NCBI GenBank assembly: GCA_026710105.1
Contig: JAPORR010000099.1
Location: forward strand, 1-48,238
Direction: 5' to 3'
DNA length: 48,238 nt
DNA from: Alphaproteobacteria bacterium
Lineage (GTDB): Bacteria > Pseudomonadota > Alphaproteobacteria > Bin95
Positions 2,223 to 32,679 of the stretch are shown here, one piece after another. The notes under the pieces were generated by a model, which worked only from the letters and a program-made list of their open reading frames with translations, was not told the DNA's origin and did not search any database. The translations under genes were made by a program, and so were the position numbers. Every line of letters begins with the position of its first letter. The stretch's first letter is position 1.

Positions 2223-3047
2223 TCACTCGCATACCACGCCATCTCCGTCCCCGTCACGCATGTACTGGTAGGCCGGATGAGAACGGTGAACGGGCGCGAT
2301 TCGGTGCCGGCGGGCCTCAGCGCAAGTGATCCTGCCGTTTCGGTTGTCGTCGTACCGTGCGAGCGCATCACCGCCGTCGTTGTGACTCGGTGCGGCCCTC
2401 GGCTTGGGCGTCGTGCTCCGCACGCACACCAAGGGTTCCATCACGGTGCTCTCGCACTGGGCGAGGATCCGGTCCAAGGCCGCCGCTTCGCGCCGGTCGA
2501 TTGTCAAGTCGTAGGCGCGACGGACTTCCACGACGCGGGCCGCGAACCAGCACCGATTACGATCGGGGAGCCACTCTGCGGCGTCCTTGGCACGTTTCTG
2601 GCGTCGATTCACTTGCGGGCCGGCCAGCGTGAGGTTACGCAGATCCGTCGCGAACCGTGCCCGGGTCATCCGGTCGCGGGCGCACAGTCCCGAGTCGTGG
2701 GCCTCGCTCGTGGCCACGATGTGCTCGATGTCGGTCTCGTTCGTCGATCCGAAGCATGTCCCAGTGTAGGGGCCATAGATCGCGCCGAGACGGTGCACGA
2801 TCTCGCGCTCGACGGACTGCGGATACCGATAGTCGCGTTTCCGGTCGTAGGGCGAGCAACGATGTTCAGGCGCTACCGTCAAGCCGCGCCAGGTCTCGGC
2901 GGCGCAGGCGACATCGACGAGCAGGACCGTGGCAAGGAGCACGACCCATCCCGGGCTGACCAACGAGGCGGGACGAAAACCCTCATCCGGACGCCGGCCG
3001 CGGAAGCCCGTGCAAGGTTCAGAACTCAACATCGTCGAACTCATCAA
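2223..3047 (-). CDS. HNH family endonuclease (DUF1524/GmrSD C-terminal-like) with C-terminal Excalibur Ca-binding domain, probably secreted
   Basis: Hydrophobic N-terminal segment (GWVVLLATVLLVDVACAAE); ETDIEHIVATSEAHDSGLC...DLRNLTLAGPQVNRRQKRAKDAAEWLPDRNRCWF; C-term NGRITCAEARRHRIAPVHRSHPAYQYMRDGDGDGVVCE is Excalibur-like. Confidence 0.75.
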   Translation of the reverse strand: MMSSTMLSSEPCTGFRGRRPDEGFRPASLVSPGWVVLLATVLLVDVACAAETWRGLTVAPEHRCSPYDRKRDYRYPQSVEREIVHRLGAIYGPYTGTCFGSTNETDIEHIVATSEAHDSGLCARDRMTRARFATDLRNLTLAGPQVNRRQKRAKDAAEWLPDRNRCWFAARVVEVRRAYDLTIDRREAAALDRILAQCESTVMEPLVCVRSTTPKPRAAPSHNDGGDALARYDDNRNGRITCAEARRHRIAPVHRSHPAYQYMRDGDGDGVVCE

Positions 3048-3119
3048 GATCGGCGGTATCCGGCGCCCGCCGGGCGATGAACATTCCGACCACCGCGACG
3101 AGGCGCGGCGCAGGCTCCG

Positions 3120-3603
3120 TCAACATCTGGTCGATGCTGTAGAGGCCTCGATCTCCTCCGGGCACGGACGAATTTCCATGTCATGAACGGCGTCCGTGCT
3201 CTCGGTGCGGACGAAGCGGCGCGTGCGCGACGGCTTTCGGGTACCCACCACTGCGACCGAGCGCGAGTACGCCAAGTCCCACCAGCCTTGGTCGTAGAGC
3301 AGCTCGACGGGATGGGCGGCATCTCGCAGCCGCTCGGGGTACTCGCCGGCGCCATGGACCCGCACGCCGAACCACTCGACCTCGAGGAGCCGCCGCTTGA
3401 CGAAGACGGCGCACTCGTGAGCCTCCGATCGGGGAACGAAGTCTGAAGGCAGGCTGCCGGACGCTGGACGAAGCGCTCGGCGAGTGACTTGAAGGTCGCG
3501 TCGCGTTCAGACCACAGCGTCTCGTAAACGCCCATCTCGCGGAACGGCGAGACGGCGCGGGCTTCGAAATCCGTGCCCCCGAAGTCGAACTCCCGCTCCA
3601 TTG
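3120..3603 (-). pseudogene. DprA/Smf-like (Rossmann-fold DNA-processing) protein, frameshifted and truncated
   Basis: MEREFDFGGTDFEARAVSPFREMGVYETLWSERDATFKSLAERF in one frame continues, after a single-base shift, as LPSDFVPRSEAHECAVFVKRRLLEVEWFGVRVHGAGEYPERLRDAAHPVELLYDQGWWDLAYSRSVAVVGTRKPS; homology is then lost. Confidence 0.6.
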
Positions 3604-3643
3604 CGGTCCTCCCGTGCCTTTCCACCCGCCGTCCGTGCGGTCG

Positions 3644-4138
3644 CTACTGTGGCGCCATTGTCAACGAGGGGTCAAGGACGCCGCCGCGCCGCACGTCGCG
3701 CCCCGAGGCGATCGCGGAACGCGGCCAGGCCCCCTCGGTTGCGGACCAGCGGCGGCAGCGCCTCGTCATCCGGGAATGGCAGAACAGCGCAAGGTGTGCC
3801 CGTCGGGCCTCCAAACGACCTTTCCCGAGCTCCGGCGCGGGGCGTCGGCACTCCCAGAAAGATGCCTGCCGAGCGGAGGATTGGGAAACGTCCTCCGGCG
3901 GCGAACTGCGACGCAAGTCTATCGCCTCCTGATTCTTCCGGGCTCGGACCCAACCCGCCGTGGCCAAACGGAGGACCAGGATCGTCCGCAGTGTAAAATT
4001 GAGATCGAGCCTCAGCAGCTCGCGGACGTCCTCCAGCCGAAGTGGGGGCTCGGAATGACCAAGCCCCCGCAACACGCGTTCGACACGCTTATCGATGTCC
4101 TGTGCTGTTTTTTCGGACAGGACGTGGTTCCTGGCCAA
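3644..4138 (-). pseudogene. ImmA/IrrE-like protein, N-terminal fragment followed by scrambled sequence
   Basis: MARNHVLSEKTAQDIDKRVERVLRGLGHSEPPLRLEDVRELLRLDLN resembles the start of ImmA-type proteins paired with XRE regulators. YTADDPG continues in the next frame after a T-run indel. No HExxH motif is found downstream. Confidence 0.45.
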
Positions 4139-4155
4139 ATCCCACCCCCTATTCG

Positions 4156-4641
4156 CTACTTCTGCTCGCTGAGCACGGCAACGAACGCTTCCAGCGCCGC
4201 GCCCTCTTCGGGCGTCAATGCTGCGGTCGACTTCGAACGCGCGGCAAACCGGACACCTTCATCGAACAGCCTCGCATCCTTCGGCGCAGCCAATCCCGCC
4301 ACCTGCATAAGGCCGGATTGAGAGACCTTGAAATAGTTCGCGAGTTGGTAGGCCGTTCGCAGTTCCGGCCTGTGATTCGGGTCGCTCTCGATTCCCACGA
4401 GATCGCCCATATCCACATCCGCATCGTCGGCAAGCTGCTCTAGACTCATTCCCCGCTGCCGTCGCATTAGATTGACAAACCAGCCGAATGCTACGTTCGG
4501 ACTCTCCTCCTCGCCCACATCCGCGGGAATACGTTCACCATCGAACACCGGGTCGATCGCCAGCCGACCCGCGCCGATCTCGGCGTCGCCCTCATGCTGC
4601 GCCATGCGCACGCACCAGTCCTTGCTGATTTCAATCCTCAT
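4156..4641 (-). CDS. XRE-family (HTH) transcriptional regulator
   Basis: RQRGMSLEQLADDADVDMGDLVGIESDPNHRPELRTAYQLANYFKVS is an HTH_3-like segment; located directly upstream of an ImmA-like fragment. Confidence 0.8.
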   Translation of the reverse strand: MRIEISKDWCVRMAQHEGDAEIGAGRLAIDPVFDGERIPADVGEEESPNVAFGWFVNLMRRQRGMSLEQLADDADVDMGDLVGIESDPNHRPELRTAYQLANYFKVSQSGLMQVAGLAAPKDARLFDEGVRFAARSKSTAALTPEEGAALEAFVAVLSEQK

Positions 4642-4991
4642 TTCGACCTCCCCTTCGCGATGAAGGCCTGCGCGTTCTCGGGACTCATCTCGAAGTAGCG
4701 CAGACCCTCGTGGTCGGGATCGGTGCCCAAATCCGTCATGCCGCAGGTATTAGCGTAGAAGCCGTTCGCCTGTGGCAGCGAATGAAGCTCGATCCTTCCA
4801 TGAAACTTCAGCTCCTCGCTCAGCGCCACGGCAGCCCGCCTCAGCCGCTGCATCGCCCTGAACAGCTCCGGCACCCACTCTCCTTCCCAATCCGCCAGCT
4901 GCTCCTCGGTTATCGCGTCCCAAAGCTCGGCGGTCACAGGCTCGCCGCTCGCCACGTCCAACAGATGAACCTCCGTGGCTTCCGCCGTCAT
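4638..4991 (-). CDS. Small protein of unknown function (117 aa)
   Basis: Complete ORF with 4-bp overlaps to both the upstream RHH gene (4988-4991) and the downstream XRE gene (4638-4641). No family recognised. Confidence 0.65.
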   Translation of the reverse strand: MTAEATEVHLLDVASGEPVTAELWDAITEEQLADWEGEWVPELFRAMQRLRRAAVALSEELKFHGRIELHSLPQANGFYANTCGMTDLGTDPDHEGLRYFEMSPENAQAFIAKGRSK

Positions 4992-5200
4992 AGCATCATG
5001 ACCTCGGCCTTTTCCTTCGTGGCCTCGTTCTCGAAGAACAGCTTGTTGCCGCTCTCCAAGCGCCCTTCGATCACCTGATACATCCGCAGGGCCTGGCGCA
5101 GCAGCGCTGTCTTGCTCAGCTCCCTCTTCTCGCTCAACGCTTCCAGGGCCGCCATCTCCGCTTCCGTAAGGTTAAGCGTCATCGTTCTCTTGGCCGCCAT
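4988..5200 (-). CDS. Ribbon-helix-helix (CopG-like) regulator
   Basis: MAAKRTMTLNLTEAEMAALEALSEKRELSKTALLRQALRMYQVIEGRLESGNKLFF; ATG at 5200 (minus) preceded by a purine-rich GGAGGAGGGAG ribosome-binding site. Confidence 0.75.
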   Translation of the reverse strand: MAAKRTMTLNLTEAEMAALEALSEKRELSKTALLRQALRMYQVIEGRLESGNKLFFENEATKEKAEVMML

Positions 5201-5295
5201 CGCTCCCTCCTCCCTCGCATCTCGGAGCAAACCCGAATATACCCATGCCGTGACCAAGAATCGATCAAAAAGAAGGTTATTGTTTTATTTTTATT

Positions 5296-5313
5296 AGCTA
5301 TAAATAAGCTATA
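5296..5313 (-). promoter_or_regulatory. Candidate operator/promoter: two AGCTATA direct repeats 11 bp apart in an AT-rich patch
   Basis: agctata at 5296-5302 and 5307-5313 within ~60 bp of AT-rich DNA upstream of the RHH gene. Confidence 0.4.
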
Positions 5314-5358
5314 TATCCTACATAAGAAACTCGCGGCAATCGTCGCATGGAGGTATGC

Positions 5359-5459
5359 CCGGATGGCGCACACATCCGAATACTGAATCGGAGACCCAGT
5401 GCAGGCGGCTCGCAGCCGCCGGCCAGGCTCTGCGTGCCGACCGGAATTGCGCCATCCGG
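5359..5459. repeat. REP-like nested inverted repeat
   Basis: Perfect 12-bp arms ccggatggcgca (5359-5370) and tgcgccatccgg (5448-5459), enclosing an inner perfect hairpin ggcggct-cgc-agccgcc (5404-5420). Confidence 0.5.
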
Positions 5460-5623
5460 CGCCCATCCGCGGGTGTCAACTCTGACAAATCGCGTTTCGA
5501 TCTCCGGGCGGGGGGATCCGGTCCCGTGCATAATTGTCCAACTCACTGCCTATGCTCTCGCTTCTGGACCTTAACAACATCCCGGCGTAATCCCTAGCCC
5601 GCCATGATTCGGAGGCTGCCCGT

Positions 5624-6664
5624 ATGAAGTGTCCTTTGCCTTTCTTCACCGTTATTGCGATCGTATGGGCCACCGTCACCTCTGCCCAAGAGGCGCCACG
5701 GCCTGTGAAACTGATGACAGTGGAAGCTCCATCCGAGGGCGTCGCGCGGCAGTTTTTCGGCAGGGTCGCCGCCAGACAGACGGTTGATCTGGCCTTTCAG
5801 ACGGCGGGCCAGATCGTGCACTTCCCCGCAGTCGAGGGACGTATCGTCCCTGCCGGGGCGATCATCGCCCAGCTCGACCTCGAGCCGTTTGAATTGTCTC
5901 TTGAGCAGGCACGCCTGCAGCGGGACCGGGCTCATCGGAACGCCGAGCGTCTGGGCAAGCTCCGGGGAGGCGCGGCGCGCCGGGCGAGCATTGAGGACGC
6001 GGCCACCGAAGCCGGGCTGGCTGACATTGCGTTCCGTAATGCGAAATACGCCCTGAAGCACGCCACCCTTTACGCGCCATTCGACGCCCTTGTGGCGAAC
6101 CGCGCCGCCGCCAGGTTCGCGACGGTTCGCGCCGGTGCGCCGGTCGTCCGACTCCATGACATGTCCGAAATTCGGATTGAGATCGATGTCCCGGAAGTGT
6201 TGTTCCAGCGCGCCGGGCGCGATCCGAATGTGGCCCTTGCCGCCCGCTTCCCCGCCAGCGAGACGCTGTTCCCGGTCGAAGTGCGTGAGTTCAACGCCGA
6301 GACCTCCCGCTTCGGGCAAACCTTCCGTGTCACGCTGGGCATGCCGCCGCCGGACGGGCTCAACATTCTCCCCGGCTCCTCCGTCACGATCCTGGCGACC
6401 CTGCGCCGCCCCCGCCCGCGGATCGTCATTCCGGCGTCCGCCGTAGCCATCGCCGCCGACGGCGCAGCATCGGTCATGGTCTTTCGCATGATCGAGGGCG
6501 ATGAAGGCATTGTCGAGACAAAGCCGGTGACACTAGCAATCAGCAACCGAGGCGAATTCGAGGCGATCGAAGGCCTGTCCGCCGGCGAGGAAATTGTAGC
6601 CGCCGGAGTCAACGCCCTGAAGGACGGTGCCAGGGTGCGCCGCTTCCAGGAAGTGTCGAACTGA
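5624..6664 (+). CDS. RND efflux periplasmic adaptor subunit (HlyD/MFP family)
   Basis: VEGRIVPAGAIIAQLDLEPFELSLEQARLQRDRA, ATLYAPFDALVANRAA, VVRLHDMSEIRIEIDVPE; signal peptide at the N-terminus. Confidence 0.9.
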   Translation: MKCPLPFFTVIAIVWATVTSAQEAPRPVKLMTVEAPSEGVARQFFGRVAARQTVDLAFQTAGQIVHFPAVEGRIVPAGAIIAQLDLEPFELSLEQARLQRDRAHRNAERLGKLRGGAARRASIEDAATEAGLADIAFRNAKYALKHATLYAPFDALVANRAAARFATVRAGAPVVRLHDMSEIRIEIDVPEVLFQRAGRDPNVALAARFPASETLFPVEVREFNAETSRFGQTFRVTLGMPPPDGLNILPGSSVTILATLRRPRPRIVIPASAVAIAADGAASVMVFRMIEGDEGIVETKPVTLAISNRGEFEAIEGLSAGEEIVAAGVNALKDGARVRRFQEVSN

Positions 6665-6674
6665 GGGCCGCGCC

Positions 6675-9600
6675 GTGAACATTGCGCGTCGCAGTATCGA
6701 ACGGCCCCTGCCGAGCTGGATCATCATCCTGGTCTGCCTGGCTGGTGGTGTCTGGGGGTTCCTCACTCTTGGGCGGCTGGAAGACCCGGCCTTCACGATC
6801 AAGCAGGCCGTCGTTGAGACCCACTACCCCGGGGCCTCGGCACAGCAGGTCGCCCGGGAGGTCTCCGAACCGTTGGAATCGGCCATCCAGAAATTGGCCG
6901 AGGTCGAACGGATCCAGTCGATCAATCGGCCGGGCGTGTCGTCTATCGAAGTGCATATCGACTCCCGCTTCGCCGGTTCTGAATTGCCAGCGATCTGGAC
7001 CAGGCTCAGGGCAAGAGTGGAAGACGCGGCGCGACAGTTGCCGTCGGGAGTCGAGGCACCTGAAGTGAACGACAGTTTCGGCGATGTGTTCGGCCTCTAC
7101 TACGCCGTCACCGCCGAGGGCTTCGCCGATGCGGAAAAGCACCATCTCGCCACATTCCTCCGGCGCGAATTGCTCGCTGTCGAGGGTGTCGCCGATGTCA
7201 GTGTTAGGGGCTTGCCGGAAGAAGCAATCTTTGTCGAGCCGAATCTCGCTCTCGCCGTCAATCTGACTGTTGCGCCGCAGATCATCGCGGCAGCGCTCGC
7301 CAACGCCAATTCCGTGGTCGATGCTGGGTCCACCGATACGGCCCTTATCGCCGCACCTGCCGGATCAGACACAGTGTCGGAGATCGCAGGCCTGTCGATC
7401 GGCGTCGGTGGTGACAGGATCAATCTTGCCGATCTCGCCGAGGTCAGCCGTGGCCGGCAATCCGACCCCGACCTGATCGTTCGCTTCAACGGCATCGAAG
7501 CTTTCACCATCGGCATCGCCGGCCTCGCAACCGAGAATATCGTGGCCGTCGGCAAGCGGGTAGAGCAACGCCTCGCCACACTCCAACGGGACATTCCCAT
7601 CGGCGTCGAATTGCACCCGATCTACCGCCAGCACCTAGTAGTCGAGGCGGCGTCGAACGACTTTCTCGCCAATCTTGCGATGTCCGTGGGTATCGTGACG
7701 GTCGTGCTGGCCCTGTTCATGGGATGGCGGGCTGGGGCAGTTGTCGGATCGACGCTCCTGCTGACAGTGGTCGGCACGCTTTTTTTCATGATGATCTTCT
7801 CCATCGAAATGGAACGCATTTCGCTGGGCGGCCTGATTATCGCGATGGGCATGCTTGTGGACAATGCCATCGTAGTCGCCGAGGGCATGCAGACCGCGAT
7901 GCTGCAGGGCAAGTCTTCGCGCGATGCAGCCGACGAGGCCGCCTCCAGAACCCAGGCTCCACTCCTCGGGGCCACCCTTATCGGCATCATGGCGTTCGCG
8001 GGAATCGGTCTCAGCCCGGATGCAACTGGCGAGTTCCTGTTTTCCCTGTTTGCCGTAATCGGCATTTCACTGCTGCTCTCCTGGTTGCTCGCCATGACCG
8101 TGACGCCGCTGCTGGGCCACTATCTCTTCAGGCAGGGCGGCGCGAAAACTGCCGTCTATGACAGCCTGGTGTTCCGGGCCTATGGCGCGGTCCTGCGTGG
8201 TGCGCTGAAAATACGCTGGCTGGTGCTCGCTGTCCTGGCCACGATGACAGCGGCGTCCCTGTTCGGGTTCACCCATGTCCAGCAGCAATTCTTCCCGGAT
8301 TCGAACACGCCGATCTTCTTCGTGCATTACAAGCTGCCGCAGGGCACTCGCATTCATCGCGTATCCGAAGACCTTGCGGCGGTTGAGGCGTGGCTGTCCC
8401 GACGGGAGGAGGTCGAGTCGGTTGCGACTTTCGTCGGCGGGGGCGCCTCACGTTTCGTGCTGACCTATTCGGCCGGGATGCCGAATCCGAGCTATGGGCA
8501 TCTCATCATTCGTGCCCGGTCCCTCGACAGGATTCCAGCATTACAGACCGATCTCGAGGCCTTTGGCCGGCTCAGACTCCCGGAGGGCGAGTTCCGCACC
8601 CGGCGTCCGGTTTTTGGCCCCGGAGGCAGCGACCCGATCCAGGTCCGCTTTTCCGGCAGTGATCCAGACATTCTTCGCCGGCTCGGCGAGGAAGCTATCG
8701 CCCGCATGGCCACCGCATCGAATGACCTCAACCATCTCCGGACCGACTGGCGCGAGCGGGAACTGGTCATCTCGCCCCTCTATGCCAGCGCCCGGGCGCA
8801 AACCGCCGGCCTCGCGCGCGAGGACATCGCCGCGACGCTCAAATTTGCTACTGACGGCCTTCGCGCCGGCGCGTATCGGGAAGGCGAACGGCTAATTCCG
8901 ATCATCGTGCGTCTGCCCCGCGAGTCCGGTCTCGGCTTGGGCGACCAGATGGTCTGGTCTACCGCCGCAGCTGCCTTTGTGCCAATCGAACAGGCGATAG
9001 ACGGTTTCACCTGGGAGGCGCAGGACACGCTGGTGCATCGCCGGGACCGCCTGCTAACCCTGACGGTGTCGGCTGACATCCCGCGCGAGCGGACTGCCGC
9101 CGAAGTCCATGCCACAATCCGCAAGATGATAGAGGGCATGCTGCTGCCCCTCGGCTACCAGATGGCCTGGGGTGGGGAATTCGAATCGTCGGGCAAGGCA
9201 CAGTCCGGCCTTGCCGGGCAGTTGCCACTCAGTGTTGTTGCAATGGTGCTGATCTCGATCCTGCTATTCAACACACTCCGCCAGCCTCTGGTTGTCTGGC
9301 TGCTGGTTCCAATGGCGGTGAACGGCGTCGTGATCGGGCTTCTCGGAACCGGCCTGCCCTTCACCTTCACCGCCCTGCTCGGGCTGCTCAGCCTTTCCGG
9401 CATGCTCATAAAGAACGGCATCGTTCTGGTTGAGGAAATAGACCTCGTCCGCCGCAACGGCAGGGCGTTGAACGAGGCGATCGAGACCGCCTGCAAATCG
9501 CGTCTGCGCCCGGTAGCGCTTGCAGCGGCTACCACGATCCTCGGCATGATGCCGCTGCTGACAGACGCCTTCTTCGTCTCCATGGCAGCGACTATCATGA

Positions 9601-9740
9601 GCGGGCTGGCCTTCGCCTCGCTCCTGACGCTGGTCGCGGCACCCGTCCTCTACCATGTGCTGTTTGCACGCAAGGGACGGCACCACGCCACCCGAACAGG
9701 CACCGACCTGACGCCGGAGGACGGAGGCCGCCGACTGTGA
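6675..9740 (+). CDS. RND-family efflux transporter permease (AcrB-like)
   Basis: GTG start at 6675; VNIARRSIERPLPSWIIILVCLAGGVWGF...; long RND-type protein with GGLIIAMGMLVDNAIVVAEG and a repeated TM architecture. Confidence 0.93.
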   Translation: MNIARRSIERPLPSWIIILVCLAGGVWGFLTLGRLEDPAFTIKQAVVETHYPGASAQQVAREVSEPLESAIQKLAEVERIQSINRPGVSSIEVHIDSRFAGSELPAIWTRLRARVEDAARQLPSGVEAPEVNDSFGDVFGLYYAVTAEGFADAEKHHLATFLRRELLAVEGVADVSVRGLPEEAIFVEPNLALAVNLTVAPQIIAAALANANSVVDAGSTDTALIAAPAGSDTVSEIAGLSIGVGGDRINLADLAEVSRGRQSDPDLIVRFNGIEAFTIGIAGLATENIVAVGKRVEQRLATLQRDIPIGVELHPIYRQHLVVEAASNDFLANLAMSVGIVTVVLALFMGWRAGAVVGSTLLLTVVGTLFFMMIFSIEMERISLGGLIIAMGMLVDNAIVVAEGMQTAMLQGKSSRDAADEAASRTQAPLLGATLIGIMAFAGIGLSPDATGEFLFSLFAVIGISLLLSWLLAMTVTPLLGHYLFRQGGAKTAVYDSLVFRAYGAVLRGALKIRWLVLAVLATMTAASLFGFTHVQQQFFPDSNTPIFFVHYKLPQGTRIHRVSEDLAAVEAWLSRREEVESVATFVGGGASRFVLTYSAGMPNPSYGHLIIRARSLDRIPALQTDLEAFGRLRLPEGEFRTRRPVFGPGGSDPIQVRFSGSDPDILRRLGEEAIARMATASNDLNHLRTDWRERELVISPLYASARAQTAGLAREDIAATLKFATDGLRAGAYREGERLIPIIVRLPRESGLGLGDQMVWSTAAAAFVPIEQAIDGFTWEAQDTLVHRRDRLLTLTVSADIPRERTAAEVHATIRKMIEGMLLPLGYQMAWGGEFESSGKAQSGLAGQLPLSVVAMVLISILLFNTLRQPLVVWLLVPMAVNGVVIGLLGTGLPFTFTALLGLLSLSGMLIKNGIVLVEEIDLVRRNGRALNEAIETACKSRLRPVALAAATTILGMMPLLTDAFFVSMAATIMSGLAFASLLTLVAAPVLYHVLFARKGRHHATRTGTDLTPEDGGRRL

Positions 9741-9777
9741 TTCCCCCACCATCCGCGCAGAAGGAGGAGGGACGGCC

Positions 9778-10701
9778 CTATGCCTTCGCCGCCGCGATCA
9801 GACCATAATGCTGCGGCTGACGATGGAGAGCGAAATCAAAGATCTGGCGGCGGATTTCGTCGCAGCGCTCTAGATCGCAATCGACCACCACCACTTCGTC
9901 GCCGACGCCCTGGGCCATGGCTACAATCTCGCCTGTCGGTGCAACGATGGCGCTCTGGCCGATCAGGTCACAGCCTTCCTCCCGACCTGCCTTGGCGACC
10001 CCCACCACCCAATTGCCGTTCTGATAGGCGCCCGCCTGCATGGACAGGTGATTGTGGAACCACATCAGGTGGTCGTGCTCGGGCACGGGCGGATTGTGGG
10101 CCGGCGTGTTGTAGCCGAGCATGACCAATTCGACTCCCTGCAACCCCATGACCCGGTAGGTTTCCGGCCAGCGGCGGTCGTTGCAGATGCACATGCCCAT
10201 CTTGCCGTCAAAGGCCTCGAACACCGGGAAACCAAGGTCGCCTGGCTCGAAATACGCCTTTTCTAGGTGCTGGAACGGGCGCCAGGACTCGTGCTCGGCA
10301 TGGCCCGGGAGGTGGACTTTGCGGTATTTGCCGACGATCGCACCCTCGCCGTTCACCAGGATCGAGGTGTTGAAGCGCCGCTTGCCGCCCCCGGCTTCGT
10401 GGACCAGCTCCGCATAGCCGAGATAGAAACCGACTCCGAGTGCGGCCGCTAGGTCGAACAGCGGGCACACCGCGGCGTTCGGCATCTCGGTTTCGTAGAA
10501 GGTGTCAAGTTCCTCCTCGTCCTCAATGTGCCAGCGGGGGAAGAAGCTGGTGAGCGCAAGTTCGGGGAACACCACGACCTTCGCACCCTTGGCGTGGGCC
10601 TCGCGCATCATCTCCGACATACGCACGACACAGGACTGGCGCGAGTCCGTACGGGCAATGGGACCCATTTGGGCGGCGGCGACACCCAACCGTCTAGTCA
10701 C
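9778..10701 (-). CDS. Carbon-nitrogen hydrolase, N-carbamoyl-D-amino-acid hydrolase-like
   Basis: VFPELALTSFFPRWH, GKYRKVHLPGH, MCICNDRRWPETYRVMG give the E-K-C nitrilase triad; GYNTPAHNPPVPEHDHL and HRQPQHYGLI fit the DCase subfamily. GTG start at 10701. Confidence 0.85.
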   Translation of the reverse strand: MTRRLGVAAAQMGPIARTDSRQSCVVRMSEMMREAHAKGAKVVVFPELALTSFFPRWHIEDEEELDTFYETEMPNAAVCPLFDLAAALGVGFYLGYAELVHEAGGGKRRFNTSILVNGEGAIVGKYRKVHLPGHAEHESWRPFQHLEKAYFEPGDLGFPVFEAFDGKMGMCICNDRRWPETYRVMGLQGVELVMLGYNTPAHNPPVPEHDHLMWFHNHLSMQAGAYQNGNWVVGVAKAGREEGCDLIGQSAIVAPTGEIVAMAQGVGDEVVVVDCDLERCDEIRRQIFDFALHRQPQHYGLIAAAKA

Positions 10702-23531: not shown

Positions 23532-24379
23532 CCGGCAGCGGCTGGTTCGAGGAAGCCATTCACGCCCATGCGACGCAGAAACTCGAAGTCACGGAGGTTC
23601 TATACAGGTCGCAGACCCCACATCAGAAGGTCGTCATCTTCGAAAACCCAACCTTCGGGCGGGTGATGACGCTTGATGATGTGGTGCAGGTCACCGAGGG
23701 CGACGAGTTCATCTATCATGAGATGATGGCGCATGTGCCGATCCTGGCGCATGGCGCGGTCAGCGATGTGCTGATCGTCGGCGGCGGTGATGGCGGTCTT
23801 CTGGAAGAAGTGCTGAAGCACCCGGTTGAACATGCGACTATGGTAGAGATCGACCATGGGGTGGTGGACTTGGCCCGGCGCTACCTGCCCTCGATCTGCA
23901 AGGGCGCGTTCGAAGATCCGCGCACGGAGCTGGTTATCACCGACGGCGCGCAGTTTGTCGCCGAAACGGACAGCCGCTACGATGTCATCCTGATCGATTC
24001 CACCGACCCTATCGGCCCGGGCGAGGCCCTGTTCCGGCACGGCTTTTACGCCGGTTGCAAACGCTGCCTGAAGCCAGGGGGAATATTGGTGACGCAAAAT
24101 GGCGTGGCCTTCGTGCAGGGCGAGGAGTTGACGGCTTCCTGGCGCCATTTCAATGCGCTGTTCACCGATCCGGCTGCCTATGCGGTCGCAGTGCCGACCT
24201 ATATCTGGGGCTTCATGGCGCTCGGCTGGGCAAGCGACGAGACAGAACACCGGCGGAGGACACTGGAAACTATCACCGGGCGCTATGCCGCAGTCGGCCT
24301 CGATACACGCTACTACAATCCCGAAATCCATCTCGGCGCTTTCGCGCTGCCGACCTACATGAAGGAGCTGATGCGGTGA
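23528..24379 (+). CDS. speE: Spermidine/polyamine aminopropyltransferase
   Basis: WFEEAIHAHATQKLEVTEVLYRSQTPHQKVVIFENPTFGRVMTLDDVVQVTEGDEFIYHEMMAHVP, LIVGGGDGGLLEEVLKH, LIDSTDPIGPGEALF. Confidence 0.95.
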   Translation: MTGSGWFEEAIHAHATQKLEVTEVLYRSQTPHQKVVIFENPTFGRVMTLDDVVQVTEGDEFIYHEMMAHVPILAHGAVSDVLIVGGGDGGLLEEVLKHPVEHATMVEIDHGVVDLARRYLPSICKGAFEDPRTELVITDGAQFVAETDSRYDVILIDSTDPIGPGEALFRHGFYAGCKRCLKPGGILVTQNGVAFVQGEELTASWRHFNALFTDPAAYAVAVPTYIWGFMALGWASDETEHRRRTLETITGRYAAVGLDTRYYNPEIHLGAFALPTYMKELMR

Positions 24380-25263
24380 TCGCCTACGGTGCCGGAACAG
24401 CCGCGATAGAAGTTGTGCCGACGGGTTTCGCACTCGGGGCGGAGATCCGCGGCATCGATGCCCGCAAACCGGTGCCACCGGAAACGGCCAAGACGCTGCG
24501 CGAGGCCTGGAAACAGCATCTAGTGCTGCTCTTCCGCGGCCAGACAGGACTGACGGACCAGCAGCTGATCACCTTCACCCAGGTTTTTGGACCGTTGCAG
24601 GCAGCGCCTAACAGCGATGTGACCGCAGGCTTCGGTTCGTTCGCGGACGTGCCGCCGGAAGTGGCAGTCATCTCCAACATTAAGGTCGATGGTCGGCCCA
24701 TCGGTGCGCTCGGCGCAGGCGAGGCGGACTGGCACACGGATATGTCCTTCATCGAGGAGCCGCCAGCGGGCTCCTGCCTCTACGCCATCGAGGTGCCAGC
24801 GTCGGGCGGCAACACGTCCTTCATCAACATGCACCGGGCACTCGATACACTCGACGAGGAAATGGCAGACGCGGTCAACGGCGTCCAATGTGTGCACGAC
24901 CTGTCGCTGACCTCTACCGGCTCACGGCGGCAAGGCGTTGCGGAAGTTGCCGATGTGCGCGAAACGCCGGGCGCGCGCCATCCCGTGCTGCGGACTCATC
25001 CGGATACGAAACGCAAGGCGTTATTTCTCGGGCGCCGGCGCAATGCCTGGTTGGTCGGGTTCGAGGTTGAGGACAGCGAACGCCTGCTCGACTGCCTCTG
25101 GGCGCATGCGACGGATGAGGCCCATGTCTGGGAACATCGCTGGCGCGAGGGTGACATCGTGCTCTGGGACAACCGCGCCGTCATGCACCGCCGCGATGCC
25201 TTCGATCCCGCCACCCGCCGCCTGATGCACCGAACCCAGGTGAAGGGCGGGCGGCCCCGCTGA
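24376..25263 (+). CDS. TauD/TfdA-family Fe(II)/2-oxoglutarate dioxygenase
   Basis: GTG start overlapping the speE stop; DWHTDMSF (HxD), LWDNRAVMHRRDAF (distal His), MHRTQVKG (2OG-binding Arg). Confidence 0.88.
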   Translation: MIAYGAGTAAIEVVPTGFALGAEIRGIDARKPVPPETAKTLREAWKQHLVLLFRGQTGLTDQQLITFTQVFGPLQAAPNSDVTAGFGSFADVPPEVAVISNIKVDGRPIGALGAGEADWHTDMSFIEEPPAGSCLYAIEVPASGGNTSFINMHRALDTLDEEMADAVNGVQCVHDLSLTSTGSRRQGVAEVADVRETPGARHPVLRTHPDTKRKALFLGRRRNAWLVGFEVEDSERLLDCLWAHATDEAHVWEHRWREGDIVLWDNRAVMHRRDAFDPATRRLMHRTQVKGGRPR

Positions 25264-25330: not shown

Positions 25331-26248
25331 ATGCAGATCTATCTGCCGGTTGCCGAGCTTTCGGTCGATGTCTTCCTGTTGCTGGGGATGGGTGCCGGCG
25401 TAGGCATATTGTCCGGCCTGTTCGGCGTCGGCGGCGGCTTCTTGATGACCCCGCTCCTCATCTTTATCGGCATCCCGCCACCGGTAGCGGTGGCGAGCGA
25501 GGCGAACCAACTCGTCGCAACCTCGGTTTCAGGCGTGCTCGCCCATTGGCGGCGCGGCAGCGTGGATTTCAAGATGGGGCTTGTGCTGCTGGCAGGCGGC
25601 GTACTCGGCTCCACACTCGGCGTTTGGATGTTCAAGCTGCTGCGCGGCCTCGGCCAGATCGATCTGGTGATCTCACTCTGCTACGTCGTGTTCTTGGGTA
25701 TCGTCGGCTCGCTAATGATGGCAGAGAGCCTGCGTGCGCTGCTGCGCAAACGCAGGGGCGTCGCCCGGCGTGGCAAACTGCACCGCCACACCTGGATCCA
25801 CGGCCTGCCGCTGAAAATGCGCTTCCAGAAGTCGCGCCTCTATATCAGCGCCGTAATGCCCTTTCTGATCGGCCTGCTGGTCGGCGTGCTGGCCGCCATC
25901 ATGGGTGTAGGCGGTGGCTTCATCATGGTGCCAGCGATGATCTATCTGCTCGGCATGCCGACCTCCATGGTGGCCGGCACCTCGCTGTTCCAGATCCTGT
26001 TCGTCGTCTCGACCGTAACCCTGCTCCAATCGGCCGCCAATCAGACCGTTGATGTGATTCTGGCACTGCTGCTGCTTGCGGGTTCGGTGGTGGGCGTTCA
26101 GGTTGGCATTCGCCTCGGCGCGAGGCTGCCAGGCGAGCAGTTCCGCGTGCTGTTGGCCGCGCTTGTGCTTGCTGTTTGCATCAAGCTGCTGTTCGACCTG
26201 GTGACAACGCCTGACGACCTGTTCTCGATCCAGCCGGATGTGCGTTGA
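25331..26248 (+). CDS. TauE/SafE-family sulfite/anion exporter
   Basis: GAGVGILSGLFGVGGGFLMTPLLIFIGIPPPVAVASEANQLVATSVSG and second repeat GVLAAIMGVGGGFIMVPAMIYLLGMPTSMVAGTSLFQI. Confidence 0.92.
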   Translation: MQIYLPVAELSVDVFLLLGMGAGVGILSGLFGVGGGFLMTPLLIFIGIPPPVAVASEANQLVATSVSGVLAHWRRGSVDFKMGLVLLAGGVLGSTLGVWMFKLLRGLGQIDLVISLCYVVFLGIVGSLMMAESLRALLRKRRGVARRGKLHRHTWIHGLPLKMRFQKSRLYISAVMPFLIGLLVGVLAAIMGVGGGFIMVPAMIYLLGMPTSMVAGTSLFQILFVVSTVTLLQSAANQTVDVILALLLLAGSVVGVQVGIRLGARLPGEQFRVLLAALVLAVCIKLLFDLVTTPDDLFSIQPDVR

Positions 26249-26991
26249 TGCACGCGCTTGCGATTCTCCTGACACTCGCAGTAGCCGCGCCAGCGGCGGC
26301 GGCACAGTTCATCGTCGATGTCTCGGAACGGACGGTCGCCATCACTGCTGGGTTTACCGGCGCCGAGCTGGTTGTGTTCGGCACGACCGCGGAGGCCCAC
26401 GGAACGGCACCTGGCAAGCCCGGCGTGATCGTCGTCATTCGGGGGCCAGGACAACAGACGGTCGTCCGCAGAAAAGAACGCAATCTGGGCATATGGGCCA
26501 ATCGCGAGCGGGTCACCTTCCTGGAAGCGCCCGCTTTCGTATGGATTGCCGCTAGCGACAACCTAACAGGGCGCCCAATGATGGAGGTACTTCGCGACTA
26601 CGACATCGGCCGGGACTTCTTGACCCCGGCGGCGACGAGCGCGGCCGGGGATATCCCCGAATTCCAGGCGGCACTGGTCCGACGCAAACAGGTAGCTGGC
26701 CTCTATTCGGAAGAATTCAGTCGTATTGACTTCCCGGGCGAACACTTGTTCCGCACACGGGTCCGATTCCCGGCTAATGTTCCGGTGGGCAGCTACCGAA
26801 TCGAGGTTTTTGAAGTCCGCGACGACCGGGTCGTCAATGCGACGGCAAGCGCGCTTCATGTACGAAAGGCCGGCATTGAAGCGGCGGTGTTCCGCTTCGC
26901 GCATGAGTTCCCGATCCTGCATGGTTTCGTTGCCATCATCCTAGCCTTGGTGGCAGGATGGCTTGCAGGTGCTGTCGCGCGGAGACCCTGA
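26248..26991 (+). CDS. TIGR02186-family protein (signal peptide + C-terminal TM)
   Basis: N-terminal signal, QFIVDVSERTVAITAGFTGAELVVFGTTA...DVIVVIRGPGQQTVVRRKERNLGIWANRERVTFLEAPAFVWIAAS-type sequence, C-terminal TM VAIILALVAGWLAGAVARRP; start overlaps the TauE stop. Confidence 0.8.
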   Translation: MHALAILLTLAVAAPAAAAQFIVDVSERTVAITAGFTGAELVVFGTTAEAHGTAPGKPGVIVVIRGPGQQTVVRRKERNLGIWANRERVTFLEAPAFVWIAASDNLTGRPMMEVLRDYDIGRDFLTPAATSAAGDIPEFQAALVRRKQVAGLYSEEFSRIDFPGEHLFRTRVRFPANVPVGSYRIEVFEVRDDRVVNATASALHVRKAGIEAAVFRFAHEFPILHGFVAIILALVAGWLAGAVARRP

Positions 26992-26995
26992 CTCC

Positions 26996-27481
26996 TTGAC
27001 CGAATTTGCTTCCCCCTCGACACGGACCTTGCTTTGCGTCGTCGACGAGAGCGACGAACTGCCGGTCGCGCTGACCTTCGCAGCACTCAGATCCCGGCGC
27101 ACAGGCAGCCATGTGGGCTTGCTCTATGTCATCGATACGCCGGCGGACTTCCAGCACTGGTCCGCGGTCGGCGAACTGATGCGCGCGGAAGCCCGAGAAC
27201 ATGCCGAGACAGTCATCCTGCAGGCGGCGGCGCGGGTCCAGCGCCTTTCCGGCAGCGCCCCTTCGCTAACGATCCGCGAAGGAGACACGGTAGACGAGAC
27301 GATACAGGCTTGCGAGGACGACCCGTCCGTCGCCTTCCTGATCCTGGCCTCCGATACAGGCCCCAAGGGTCCAGGGCCACTGATCTCCTCATTGACCGGA
27401 AAGTCGGTCGGCCGCCTGCAGGTGCCAGTGGTCATTCTGCCGGGTAATCTTTCTGAGGAAGAAATAACCCGTTTCGCCTGA
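26996..27481 (+). CDS. Universal stress protein (UspA family), probable TTG start
   Basis: TRTLLCVVDESDELPVALTFAALRSRRTGSHVGLLYVID...ILASDTGPKGPGPLISSLTGKSVGRLQVPVVILPG. Confidence 0.75.
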   Translation: MTEFASPSTRTLLCVVDESDELPVALTFAALRSRRTGSHVGLLYVIDTPADFQHWSAVGELMRAEAREHAETVILQAAARVQRLSGSAPSLTIREGDTVDETIQACEDDPSVAFLILASDTGPKGPGPLISSLTGKSVGRLQVPVVILPGNLSEEEITRFA

Positions 27482-27607
27482 AGTCGGCGGCATTTCCATG
27501 CAGTTCGCGGAGCCTGCCAAGCCCGCTTGTTGCGCTTTTGCTCAGCACCGGCAAGCGCCTTGGCCACCTTGACAAGCGCTGCCCGCAATTGGTTGTATCC
27601 CTGCCGG

Positions 27608-27621
27608 GTATCGATTGATAC
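27608..27621. promoter_or_regulatory. Short inverted repeat in the aprM upstream region (possible operator)
   Basis: gtatc-gatt-gatac, 14 bp, ~43 bp upstream of the aprM start. Confidence 0.25.
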
Positions 27622-27663
27622 TATCGCGTCGGGCGTCGAATAGATTGAAATTGGGGCAATCGC

Positions 27664-28449
27664 GTGTTGACCAGTAATCCCTTCGCCATGCTTTCGGCGT
27701 CCGTATCGTCAGGCGTCATGCAGGCCTATGTCGTCATCATGGTCGTCCTGGTTGTGGGCGGCACTCTGTTCGACATCTGGCACAAGGGGAGCGCCGTCTA
27801 TTTCTTCCGTAGCTGGCGGAACACGCAGGACAAGGGAGTACGCCGTATCGGCGGCGGGGAAATGTCGGTGCTCGCGATCAAGACCGCCCTGGTGGAAGGC
27901 CTGACTTCCGCCGAGTTCGGCCCGGGGCAGCGTCGGGTTGTCCACTTGCTGACGATGTACGGTTTTCTGTCATATGTTGTTACCACCGTCATCATGGTGT
28001 TCTGGTATCCAACACCCGCCACGCCGACGCCCTCCATCCTGCCCCTGTTGTGGGTCGTTGGCGCCTTACTGGTTTGCATCGGCGGCTGCTGGTTCTGGTT
28101 CTTCATGCGGGTCGATGTAGCCGCCGAGGGCCATACGCCGTTCCGAGTGATGCGCGCCGACCTGTTCATCCTCTCGCTTGTGGCTAGCACAACGCTGGGG
28201 CTGGTCTGGGCCGCCCTGCAGGCGATGGGAAGTTCCTGCACGACAGTGTTCCTCGGCCTCTATCTCATTGCCACAACGGTGCTGTTCGGGTCGGTGCCAT
28301 GGTCCAAATTCGCCCATATGTTCTACAAGCCCGCGGCGGCGCTGGAGAAACGGGTGTCCGAGGCTGCCGGTTCAAGGCGGAACTTGCCGGCCCCAGCCGA
28401 CAAACCCGAAAAATTCGGCAGCGCTCGCGAAAGGCCGCGCCACTACTGA
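27664..28449 (+). CDS. aprM: Adenylylsulfate reductase-associated membrane protein (AprM-like)
   Basis: Multi-TM protein directly upstream of aprBA; MQAYVVIMVVLVVGGTLFDIWHKGSAVYFF..., GPGQRRVVHLLTMYGFLSYVVTTVIMVFWYP. Confidence 0.78.
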   Translation: MLTSNPFAMLSASVSSGVMQAYVVIMVVLVVGGTLFDIWHKGSAVYFFRSWRNTQDKGVRRIGGGEMSVLAIKTALVEGLTSAEFGPGQRRVVHLLTMYGFLSYVVTTVIMVFWYPTPATPTPSILPLLWVVGALLVCIGGCWFWFFMRVDVAAEGHTPFRVMRADLFILSLVASTTLGLVWAALQAMGSSCTTVFLGLYLIATTVLFGSVPWSKFAHMFYKPAAALEKRVSEAAGSRRNLPAPADKPEKFGSARERPRHY

Positions 28450-28492
28450 TCGGCCCGTAATCGGTGATCGATCAAGGAGGTAACGGAATATC

Positions 28493-28954
28493 ATGCCAAC
28501 ATTCGTTTATATGACCAGTTGCGATGGCTGTGGATATTGCGTCGATGTCTGCCCGTCCGACATCATGCATATCGATAGCAGCACCCGGCGCGCCTACAAT
28601 ATTGAGCCTAATATGTGTTGGGAGTGCTATTCCTGCGTGAAGGCATGTCCGCAGCAAGCTATTGACTGCCGCGGCTATGCCGACTTCGCGCCCATGGGCC
28701 ACAGCGTCAGGGTGTTGAGAGAGGAGGCGAAGGGTGCCATTTCCTGGAAGATCAAATTCCGGAACGGCCAGGAAAAAGACTTCGTCTCACCGATACGGAC
28801 CACGCCCTGGGGGTCGATCAAACCGCCGGTCGATTACGATGCGCCTGCTCCCGAAGCGATGAAATCCCAACAGCTCGCGCATGAGCCGGACTCGCTCCAC
28901 ATTGAGGCCTTGCCCATGCTGCAGCCAGGTCGAAGCAGCGAGGGAGGCCACTAG
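28493..28954 (+). CDS. aprB: Adenylylsulfate reductase beta subunit
   Basis: Two 4Fe-4S motifs (CDGCGYCVDVCPSD, CWECYSCVKACPQQAIDCRGYADFAPMG) and an AprB-type C-terminal tail. Confidence 0.93.
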   Translation: MPTFVYMTSCDGCGYCVDVCPSDIMHIDSSTRRAYNIEPNMCWECYSCVKACPQQAIDCRGYADFAPMGHSVRVLREEAKGAISWKIKFRNGQEKDFVSPIRTTPWGSIKPPVDYDAPAPEAMKSQQLAHEPDSLHIEALPMLQPGRSSEGGH

Positions 28955-30798
28955 TGAGCTTGTTCGCCCGCCGGAAAACGGTTTTCGTCGATGCGGATGT
29001 CCTGATCATCGGCGGCGGCATGGCCGGTTGCGGTGCAACCTATGAAGCCGGGTATTGGGGGCGCGACTTGAAGGTGGTCTGCGTCGAGAAGGCCAATATC
29101 GAACGCAGCGGTGCCGTGGCTCAGGGCCTGTATGCGATCAACTGCTATATGGGCATGCAGTGGAACGAGAATCAGCCCGAGGACCATGTCCGCTACGCCC
29201 GGAACGACCTCATGGGTCTTGTGCGAGAGGATCTGGGCTTCGATATCGCCCGGCATGTCGACTCCACGGTGCATAAGTTCGAGGAGTGGGGTCTTCCCAT
29301 AATGAAGGACCCGGAGACCGGGCGCTATCTGCGCGAAGGCAAATGGCAGATCATGATCCATGGCGAGAGCTATAAGCCCATCGTCGCCGAGGCCGCCCGC
29401 AAGGCCGCCACCGAGGTCTATAACCGGATCATGGTGACCCATCTGCTGATGGACTCCACGAAGCCCAACCGCGTTGCCGGCGCAGTCGGGTTCAATGTCC
29501 GCAGCGGCGATTTCTACGTCTTCCGCGCAAAGGCCGTCATCGTATCCGCCGGCGGTGCATCGCATATTTTCAAACCTCGGGCGGTGGGCGAAGGCATGGG
29601 GCGAACCTGGTACGCCCCTTGGAGCAGCGCATCGGCCTATGCGCTGCCACTCCTTGTCGGCGCCAAGATGACCCAGATGGAAAACCGGGTCGTTCTCACC
29701 CGCTTCAAGGACGGCTACGGCCCAGTTGGCGCCTATTTCCTCCACTTGAAGACATACACCGAGAATGCCTACGGGGAGGAATATGAGTCCAAGTGGTATG
29801 ACCACACCAAAGAACTAGTTGGGGACTATATCGACCGGCATCCAGTGCCCACCTGCCTGCGCAACCATGCCTTCCTTGAGGAGGTCAAGGCTGGCGGCGG
29901 GCCTATCCGCATGGTGACGACAGAGGCCTTTGCCGACCCCCACAAGGAACAAGTCGGCTGGGAAAATTTCCTCGGCATGACGATCGGCCAAGCGGTTGTG
30001 TGGGCGTCCCAGAACATCGACCCCAAACACACTAATCCGGAACTGACCACCTCCGAGCCCTATGTCATGGGCTCGCACGCCACCTGCTCGGGCGCTTGGG
30101 CGAGTGGTCCGGAAGACTGTGCGCCAACGGACTACCAATGGGGATACAACCGCATGATGACCGTCGAGGGGCTGTTCGGCGCCGGAGACACTATCGGCGG
30201 CACCGCCCACAAATTCTCGTCCGGATCTTTTACGGAGGGCCGGATCGCTGCAAAGGCAGCGGTCAACTATGTCAACGACCTGAAGGGTGACCGCCCGCAG
30301 ATAAACGAGCAGGAGTACGAAGACCTCAAAAGGGTCATCTTCGAGCCTCTGGAGACCTACCGGGTCGGGCGCAATGAGATCGTCGCGGGAACGGTCTCAC
30401 CGAGCTACATGTTGCCGCTTCACGGTCTCCAGCGTCTCGAAAAGATAATGGACGAATATGTTGGCGGCATAAGCTCCGGTTATGTCACCAACGAACCCAT
30501 GCTTACCCGCGGGCTGGAATTGCTGGGTATGCTGAAGGAAGATCTCACCAGTCTTGGGGCCGAAGACCTGCACCAGCTCCAGCGAGTCTGGGAACTTCAC
30601 CACCGGGTCCTCGCCTCGGAGTCAGTGACGCATCACACGATGTTCAGGACGGAAACCCGCTGGCCAGGCTACTACTACCGGGCAGACCATCCCAAGCTGG
30701 ACGATACTGACTGGCATTGCTTCACCTTGTCCCGCTACGATCGCGACTCTGGGGAATGGACTATGGAGAAGGCTCCCGTCCACCACATCGTCGACTAG
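28954..30798 (+). CDS. aprA: Adenylylsulfate reductase alpha subunit
   Basis: VDADVLIIGGGMAGCGATYEAGYWG; SGAVAQGLYAINCYMG; MGSHATCSGAWASGPEDCAPTDYQWGYNRMMTVEGLFGAGDTIGGTAHKFSSGSFTEGRIAAKAA. Confidence 0.95.
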   Translation: MSLFARRKTVFVDADVLIIGGGMAGCGATYEAGYWGRDLKVVCVEKANIERSGAVAQGLYAINCYMGMQWNENQPEDHVRYARNDLMGLVREDLGFDIARHVDSTVHKFEEWGLPIMKDPETGRYLREGKWQIMIHGESYKPIVAEAARKAATEVYNRIMVTHLLMDSTKPNRVAGAVGFNVRSGDFYVFRAKAVIVSAGGASHIFKPRAVGEGMGRTWYAPWSSASAYALPLLVGAKMTQMENRVVLTRFKDGYGPVGAYFLHLKTYTENAYGEEYESKWYDHTKELVGDYIDRHPVPTCLRNHAFLEEVKAGGGPIRMVTTEAFADPHKEQVGWENFLGMTIGQAVVWASQNIDPKHTNPELTTSEPYVMGSHATCSGAWASGPEDCAPTDYQWGYNRMMTVEGLFGAGDTIGGTAHKFSSGSFTEGRIAAKAAVNYVNDLKGDRPQINEQEYEDLKRVIFEPLETYRVGRNEIVAGTVSPSYMLPLHGLQRLEKIMDEYVGGISSGYVTNEPMLTRGLELLGMLKEDLTSLGAEDLHQLQRVWELHHRVLASESVTHHTMFRTETRWPGYYYRADHPKLDDTDWHCFTLSRYDRDSGEWTMEKAPVHHIVD

Positions 30799-30820
30799 GG
30801 TCCCACAACCTCCTGTATCG

Positions 30821-32074
30821 ATGCTGATCCCCCCCCACGGCAATGCCCCCCTTAAACCCCTGCTACTGCCCCAGGAGGAGTGGAGCGAGGCCCTAAAGAG
30901 GGCGCGCACTCTGAAAAGGCTGCCCCTGTCGAGCCGCGAGGTTTCAGACCTCTTCATGCTCGCCATGGGCGCTTACACGCCGCTCGACGGCTTCATGGGG
31001 GCAACCGACTGGCGCGGTGCCTGCCTGGAGATGCGGCTTGAGAACGGACTCTTCTGGCCGCTCCCCATTACCCTTTCCTGCAGCGAGGATTTCGCTGTCG
31101 CCACAGGCGACGAAGTGGCGTTAACAGATGAGGAAGGCACGCTCCTCGGCATCCTCGCGGTCACTGAGAAATATACCATCGACAAGACCCTCGAATGCCG
31201 AGAGGTCTATCGCACCGCCGACGAGGCTCATCCAGGCGTCGCCAAGGTGATGGCACAGGGCACCGTCAACCTTGCAGGCCCGGTTTCAGTCTTTTCCGAG
31301 GGTCATTTCCCCGAGACTTACCAGGGGCTTTACTTGCGTCCTGCTGAGACCCGGGCCCTGTTCGCCGAAAAGGGCTGGTCGACGGTCGCCGCCTTCCAGA
31401 CCCGCAATCCCATGCACCGCAGTCACGAATTTCTCGCTAGGGTCGCCATGGAAGTGTGCGACGGATTGCTTATCCACCAGGTGCTGGGGGCGCTCAAAGA
31501 CGGCGATATCCCCGCGGAGGTTCGGGTCCGCGCCATCGACTGGCTAGTTGCCAACCACTTTCCGGAAGGGAGGGCAATCCAGGCCGGCTACCCCATCGAG
31601 ATGCGTTATGCCGGCCCCCGGGAGGCATTGCTGCACGCGCTGTTCCGCCAGAACTTCGGATGCTCTCACCTGGTAGTGGGGCGCGACCATGCTGGACTTG
31701 GCGGCTATTACGGTCCCTATGACGCGCACCATATCTTCGACCAGATTGATGACGGAAGTCTCGCCATCCAGCCGCTGAAGATCGACGACACATTCCACTG
31801 CTTCGACTGCCGGGGCATGGCGACCGGCAATGTTTGCTTTGCCGCCGACGACGGTGCGGACTCGTTGGAGGAAGATGAGCGTTATCGCATGGTGGCAGCG
31901 GTGGCGACGGGCAACGCCGTGGAGCGGGTCTGCCGCTTGGATAACGACGGAAAGCTTCGCATTTCTGGCACTCGGCTGCGCGAAATGTTCGCTGGCGGCG
32001 AGGCGATCCCGCCCGAATACAGCCGCAGCGGTGTGGTCGCTATCCTCCAAGCCTATTACGATGGCGCCGCTTGA
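30821..32074 (+). CDS. sat: Sulfate adenylyltransferase (ATP sulfurylase), dissimilatory type
   Basis: MLAMGAYTPLDGFMGATDW, AFQTRNPMHRSHEFLARVAME, HLVVGRDHAGLGGYYGPYDAH, LRISGTRLREMFAGGEAIPPEYSR. Confidence 0.94.
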   Translation: MLIPPHGNAPLKPLLLPQEEWSEALKRARTLKRLPLSSREVSDLFMLAMGAYTPLDGFMGATDWRGACLEMRLENGLFWPLPITLSCSEDFAVATGDEVALTDEEGTLLGILAVTEKYTIDKTLECREVYRTADEAHPGVAKVMAQGTVNLAGPVSVFSEGHFPETYQGLYLRPAETRALFAEKGWSTVAAFQTRNPMHRSHEFLARVAMEVCDGLLIHQVLGALKDGDIPAEVRVRAIDWLVANHFPEGRAIQAGYPIEMRYAGPREALLHALFRQNFGCSHLVVGRDHAGLGGYYGPYDAHHIFDQIDDGSLAIQPLKIDDTFHCFDCRGMATGNVCFAADDGADSLEEDERYRMVAAVATGNAVERVCRLDNDGKLRISGTRLREMFAGGEAIPPEYSRSGVVAILQAYYDGAA

Positions 32075-32130: not shown

Positions 32131-32679
32131 ATGTTCATTCAGACCGAACAGACCCCTAATCCTGCAACGCTGAAATTTATCCCGGGCGTGCAGGTCATGG
32201 CGCGCGGTACGGCCGATTTCCCTTCACCGGAGGGCGCTGAGCGTTCACCGCTGGCCCAGACACTGTTTGATGTGTCAGGGGTGAGGGCAGTGTTTTTCGG
32301 CAGTGATTTCGTCACCGTCAGCAAAGACGACGCGCATGACTGGCAAGTCCTGAAACCGATGATCCTCGGCGCGATCATGGATCATTTCATGGCGGGTCGC
32401 CCCGTGCTTCTCAACGTAGACGATGACAACGACGAGGGTGCGGAGGACAGCGAGGTCGTCTCACAGATCAAGGAATTGCTGGAAACGAGGGTCCGCCCGG
32501 CAGTGGCGCAGGACGGCGGCGACATCGTCTTTCGCGCCTTCGAGGACGGCGTCGTCTATCTGAGTATGCAGGGCGCCTGCGCTGGCTGTCCGAGTTCGAC
32601 GGCGACGCTCAAGATGGGTGTCGAAAACATGCTTCGCCACTACATTTCTGAGGTTGAAGCGGTCTATCCCGTCCCCTGA
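32131..32679 (+). CDS. NifU-like/Nfu Fe-S scaffold protein
   Basis: MFIQTEQTPNPATLKFIPG and C-terminal DGGDIVFRAFEDGVVYLSMQGACAGCPSSTATLKMGVENML (CxxC). Confidence 0.93.
   Translation: MFIQTEQTPNPATLKFIPGVQVMARGTADFPSPEGAERSPLAQTLFDVSGVRAVFFGSDFVTVSKDDAHDWQVLKPMILGAIMDHFMAGRPVLLNVDDDNDEGAEDSEVVSQIKELLETRVRPAVAQDGGDIVFRAFEDGVVYLSMQGACAGCPSSTATLKMGVENMLRHYISEVEAVYPVP

Follow-up and report, generated by a model that had tools for sequence, protein, structure and literature searches.

Gene content of the locus

The locus lies in a window of 48,238 nucleotides (the whole stretch of DNA that was analyzed) and comprises seven genes, from tauE to sat, all present on the forward strand in the order and at the positions given in Table 1. 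The earlier note had described seven consecutive same-strand genes with two stop-start overlaps, and both points are borne out: each overlap amounts to one base, at TGATG (26246-26250) for tauE/TIGR02186 and at TAGTG (28952-28956) for aprB/aprA. With regard to the unbroken string that was also proposed, the gene order stands but the continuity does not, as the 182 bp that separate usp from aprM split it into two blocks. This gap allows a separate promoter for aprM. The earlier description of the string can also be extended by two neighbours, a TauD/TfdA-family dioxygenase gene upstream, whose GTG start, as read from the sequence, overlaps the speE stop, and nfu downstream, which is part of the ancestral string discussed below. 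In the same-genus genome L114, a TauD/TfdA-family gene occupies the same position.

Table 1. Features of the locus and of the sulfonate cluster found in the same genome.
Feature	Position	Strand	Evidence or remark
TauD/TfdA-family Fe(II)/2-oxoglutarate dioxygenase	about 24376..25263	+	PF02668 1.5e-64; directly upstream of TauE
TauE/SafE (TSUP) anion transporter	25331..26248	+	PF01925 1.9e-51
PF09608/TIGR02186 protein	26248..26991	+	PF09608 4.1e-65; 220 bits
Usp-family cytoplasmic protein	26963..27481	+	PF00582 8.3e-10; comes after TIGR02186 in the majority of wide loci
AprM, membrane partner of AprBA; cassette gene 1	27664..28449	+	position, hydrophobic topology, synteny
AprB, APS reductase Fe-S subunit	28493..28954	+	TIGR02060 194.8 bits, cut-off 135.65; PF12139
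AprA, APS reductase flavoprotein subunit	28954..30798	+	TIGR02061 961 bits, cut-off 641.75
Sat, ATP sulfurylase; final cassette gene	30821..32074	+	NF003166 464.5 bits, cut-off 387; PF01747 over cut-off; PF14306
Nfu Fe-S scaffold protein; right border of cassette slot	32131..32679	+	PF08712, PF01106
DHPS import/degradation cluster (L221)	own genome contig C48 (G000:C48), 1420-10475		SuyA/SuyB-like, LacI-type regulator, TRAP, HpsN, SDR, Zn-ADH

TauE reaches 175.5 bits against PF01925 (gathering score 32.6), and the product of the second gene matches PF09608 (Alph_Pro_TM) over its full length (2-227 of 227) with 220.2 bits (gathering score 24.5). Against the curated TIGR02186 equivalog model, the same protein scores 171.4 bits, below the cut-off of 255.25 bits. 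AprA is 53% identical to the AprA of Archaeoglobus (PDB code 1jnr). AprM contains several hydrophobic segments; a Pfam search assigned it to no family, and it shows weak similarity to TcuB/QmoC. Elsewhere in the window, at 5624-9740, a gene for an HlyD-type adaptor is followed by a 1037-aa ORF, and the two resemble an RND efflux pair.

Phylogeny and context of the APS reductase

A scan for AprA yielded 80 named loci, several of them 92% identical, mostly from metagenome-assembled genomes. Almost all of them retain the order aprM-aprB-aprA, and sat is found near aprA in roughly half, while the Usp-aprMBA arrangement was observed in one close relative, L052. Both the aprM-aprB-aprA order and the TauE-TIGR02186 order recur far beyond chance. 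One of the sequences 92% identical to the AprA of the window is on a contig labelled as SAR202 cluster bacterium (L005, MPMJ01000082.1); this contig is probably of proteobacterial origin and mis-binned.

In a tree of 50 AprA sequences, the AprA of the window adjoins those of L114 and L052 inside an AprM-linked clade of 45 rows (SH-aLRT 100). The three AprA sequences that lack an AprM (L121, L130, and L133) fall outside this clade. The clade also stands apart from the sequences on the Desulfovibrio gigas side, with sulfate reducers being represented by two references on long branches whose own placement is unsure. Within these bounds, the phylogeny places the AprA of the window with the AprM-linked enzymes and not with the sulfate reducers. 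As a separate observation, genome G001 carries two AprA types, L133 without AprM and L115 with AprM beside TauE-TIGR02186, and two adjacent PF01077 ORFs on its contig C77 may be dsrAB.

The genome to which the window belongs was searched by family for the enzymes expected on the reductive side. No protein with a PF01077 domain was found, hence neither dsrAB nor a siroheme sulfite reductase, and therefore no reductive dsr. Among the Qmo subunits, the search covered QmoC, for which no protein scored over the cut-off. Together with the AprM-linked position of AprA, these results uphold the oxidative direction proposed in the earlier note. A close described counterpart is the sat-aprMBA operon of Allochromatium vinosum, which belongs to an oxidative APS pathway and in which AprM is the postulated membrane partner replacing QmoABC (PMC3779200). 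The window shares with it the aprM-aprB-aprA order, a linked sat, and AprM in the place of QmoABC. In contrast to A. vinosum, the window has sat downstream, its cassette is set inside a TauE-TIGR02186-Usp-Nfu string, and no dsr or sox was found in the genome.

Likely sulfite source and competing enzymes

The earlier note had found no dsr or sox genes in the window and had suggested sulfonate degradation as a possible origin of the sulfite. Both points hold at the scale of the genome: SoxZ, like PF01077 proteins, was not found by family searches, and a cluster for the import and degradation of 2,3-dihydroxypropane-1-sulfonate (DHPS) via sulfolactate is present on contig C48 (Table 1). The TRAP binding protein of this cluster matches a PDB entry named DHPS TRAP transporter (24gc) at 6e-190, and its HpsN matches the (R)-DHPS dehydrogenase 8wwe at 6e-195. 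The SuyAB candidate, judged by its architecture and its context in the DHPS cluster, consists of a small SuyA-like protein and an adjacent GD_AH-type SuyB of about 390 aa. DHPS degradation by hpsNOP-suyAB is known from Cupriavidus pinatubonensis and Ruegeria (PMC11382572, PMC4334477). The cluster on C48 resembles these systems in having HpsN, a TRAP transporter, and SuyA/SuyB-like genes; it differs in that its HpsO and HpsP are assigned by family (SDR and Zn-ADH) and position only. This cluster is a likely source of sulfite.

Three other candidates were discarded. Xsc was rejected as a sulfite source, as no match in the genome scored over the cut-off. The TauD/TfdA-family gene was dropped as well: its family is confirmed, but its closest solved relatives are RdpA and TfdA besides TauD, and a substrate is not assignable. 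As for enzymes competing for sulfite, SorA was rejected, as the sole PF00174 protein of the genome is MsrP, and no SoeA was found at a threshold of 1e-60. Members of the genus do not share one sulfite source, since the same-genus genome G288 lacks a close HpsN (best match 46%) and possesses SoxZ.

Conservation of the TauE-TIGR02186-Usp-Nfu string

A survey of 289 alphaproteobacterial genomes detected PF09608 in 187 and aprA over the cut-off in 15. In 49 loci studied with wide flanks (L144-L183, L114-L119, L122, L124, and the window), PF09608 has TauE immediately upstream in 46; for the three exceptions (L171, L177, and L181), the profile used detected no upstream TauE. In most of these loci Usp comes next, and in many Nfu follows Usp; in relatives without the cassette, Nfu comes directly after Usp. 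A narrower set (L084-L113), which was kept out of this count as it shares genomes with the wide one, has TauE in 30/30 loci. In L144 and L150, TIGR02186 is preceded by a tandem pair of TauE genes.

TIGR02186 is not an Apr accessory in general, because the TauE-PF09608 pair is common in genomes without apr. The view put forward in the earlier note, in which the seven genes form a single dedicated module and TIGR02186 and Usp assist Apr, is therefore not supported in that form: TauE-TIGR02186-Usp is an older string, and apr-sat is placed where a sister genus has another system. Many genomes possess TIGR02186-TauE with no detected SoeA or apr, and the function of this pair may be broader than sulfite.

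Occupants of the position between usp and nfu

In the window and in L114, the position between usp and nfu is filled by aprMBA-sat. In L117 and L118, two aprA-lacking genomes from the same family, the same position holds genes for a molybdopterin enzyme (PF00384/PF04879), a 4Fe-4S protein (PF13247), and a DmsC-type anchor (PF04976), in this order. We read this three-gene set as SoeABC from its subunit architecture, an Xsc-linked example (L250), and the literature, which describes the SoeABC sulfite dehydrogenase in Ruegeria and Thioalkalivibrio (PMC4334477, PMC6382920). NCBIfam offers no curated model for SoeA, and the best matches there were other molybdoenzymes below the cut-off. SoeABC would perform the same task as AprMBA-Sat in the same slot, namely sulfite oxidation with electron transfer to the quinone pool. 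In contrast to AprMBA-Sat, it is a non-homologous molybdenum enzyme that involves neither APS nor substrate-level ATP formation.

The association extends beyond this family. TIGR02186-Usp-SoeABC is found in ten wide loci, and a divergent SoeABC in L154. Of the 62 genomes that encode both SoeA and TIGR02186, 16 have them no more than 1.2 kb apart; for aprA and TIGR02186, the distance is at most 4 kb in 4 of 12 genomes. A binomial model of uniform placement gives 6e-27 for SoeA and 1e-7 for apr, values that ignore relatedness between genomes and serve as a guide only. Judged by the AprA tree and assuming no losses, the placements of apr beside TauE look like about four lineages (the genus of the window; G001; G029 with L014; and SAR11). 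At 1e-60, SoeA is absent from the genus of the window; the genomes are drafts, that of the window consisting of 246 contigs. From this distribution, we infer that two unrelated sulfite oxidases are exchanged at this locus. The exchange may have run from SoeABC to aprMBA-sat or the other way round.

The TIGR02186 protein and its possible counterpart in SAR11

The AlphaFold2 model of the TIGR02186 protein (pLDDT 88, pTM 0.79) comprises a signal-peptide-like helix, a two-part beta domain predicted to be periplasmic, and one C-terminal transmembrane helix, with hydrophobic segments at residues 5-23 and 226-244. Foldseek returned generic beta-sandwich matches only (best E 3.2e-4, low TM), and a PDB search with the TIGR02186 alignment found nothing. 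For TauE, no sequence relatives were found in the PDB at E 0.01.

In ten Pelagibacterales-type loci, aprA is followed, after some 0.4 to 0.7 kb, by a gene for a TauE with a C-terminal extension. Each of these ten extensions matches the TIGR02186 C-terminal anchor, with E-values between 1.4e-7 and 6.5e-4, whereas unextended TauEs reach 0.36 at best. Pfam agrees for the extension of L128 (1.7e-4, below the cut-off), and a predicted helix-kink-helix is common to the models of TIGR02186 and of the extended TauE. With the latter, Foldseek gave no match under 0.001. As the similarity concerns a single short hydrophobic helix with modest E-values, we regard it as supporting, not decisive. Two of the SAR11 loci, L128 and L073, also have SuyAB-like genes. 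In SAR11, suyAB and aprAB are reported to be core or near-core genes and a role in sulfite removal has been proposed (PMC12636525, PMC5069961). SAR11 resembles the genome of the window in having suyAB, TauE beside apr, and an AprBA proposed to remove the sulfite arising from organosulfur breakdown (PMC5069961, PMC12636525). In contrast to the window, neither Sat nor Usp was detected at the SAR11 loci, and TIGR02186 is apparently reduced to the extension of TauE. A broader link between TauE-TIGR02186 and sulfite oxidation is supported by the recurrence near SoeA and apr and by this extension.

These observations suggest that TIGR02186 may be a partner of TauE. We tentatively propose that the TIGR02186/PF09608 protein is a membrane-anchored periplasmic subunit of TauE, forming a two-component sulfite transporter across Alphaproteobacteria that would serve whichever oxidase occupies the slot, SoeABC or AprMBA-Sat, and of which SAR11 would have kept only the anchor helix, joined to TauE; this is possible, if somewhat short of probable. 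The TauE sulfite exporter of Cupriavidus necator has been studied experimentally (Weinitschke 2007, as cited in PMC5320631). It belongs to the same TauE/SafE family and is linked to sulfonate degradation, and the passages of PMC5320631 that describe it include no TIGR02186 partner. No papers naming TIGR02186 or Alph_Pro_TM, or combining soeA, sulfite exporter, and Rhizobi, were found in the library of open-licence papers searched; most subscription papers lie outside this scope, and novelty is not proven.

Proposed function and alternatives

Oxidative AprMBA-Sat fed by sulfonate breakdown appears to be the best-supported function. On genomic grounds, it holds because AprA is AprM-linked, the rival enzyme families searched for were not found, and a DHPS cluster is present. 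It is likely that the locus consists of an ancestral TauE-TIGR02186-Usp-Nfu string with an oxidative aprMBA-sat between usp and nfu, the position of SoeABC in the sister genus, and that it combines DHPS-fed sulfite oxidation with sulfite transport by TauE-TIGR02186. DHPS would enter through the TRAP transporter and be converted by HpsN and its partners to sulfolactate, which SuyAB would cleave into pyruvate and sulfite. AprBA would then combine cytoplasmic sulfite with AMP to form APS, AprM would pass the electrons from AprBA to the quinone pool, and Sat would form sulfate and ATP from APS and pyrophosphate. Upon accumulation, sulfite would be moved, probably outward, by TauE with TIGR02186 as membrane-anchored periplasmic partner. 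Usp may act as a cytoplasmic regulator.

AprBA and Sat are reversible and also used by sulfate reducers, and the cassette might accordingly run reductively. This is highly improbable in a genome with neither a PF01077 sulfite reductase nor a QmoC over the cut-off, and with an AprA that groups with the AprM-linked enzymes and away from the sequences on the D. gigas side. The surrounding string raises a different question, namely whether aprMBA-sat lies beside TauE-TIGR02186-Usp by chance, the latter serving another anion or envelope stress and being functionally unrelated. The gap ahead of aprM and the wide occurrence of PF09608, mostly without apr and often without SoeA, fit such a reading. 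However, nearness of TIGR02186 to SoeA and apr far above uniform placement (relatedness being ignored), the occupation of one slot by both systems within one family, and the TauE extension beside aprA in SAR11 all argue against it, and we consider it quite unlikely.

TauE-TIGR02186 could also import external sulfite or thiosulfate for the cytoplasmic enzyme, in which case the locus would scavenge environmental sulfur instead of disposing of metabolic sulfite. AprBA and SoeA are both cytoplasmic enzymes that could use imported sulfite, and the beta domain of TIGR02186 is predicted on the periplasmic side. Nevertheless, the TauE studied in C. necator is an exporter (Weinitschke 2007, as cited in PMC5320631) and the genome has a likely internal source of sulfite, which makes import unlikely. 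Under the preferred reading, in which sulfite arises internally, the sulfonate DHPS probably supplies it to an AprMBA-Sat organism for which searches found neither dsr nor sox. The slot between usp and nfu provides a clear case of two non-homologous sulfite-oxidizing systems at one chromosomal position. Because the conserved TauE pair lies beside exchanged sulfite oxidases, a role of TIGR02186 in sulfite handling is now testable, and a protein family matched in more than half of the alphaproteobacterial genomes surveyed becomes a candidate sulfite-handling component.
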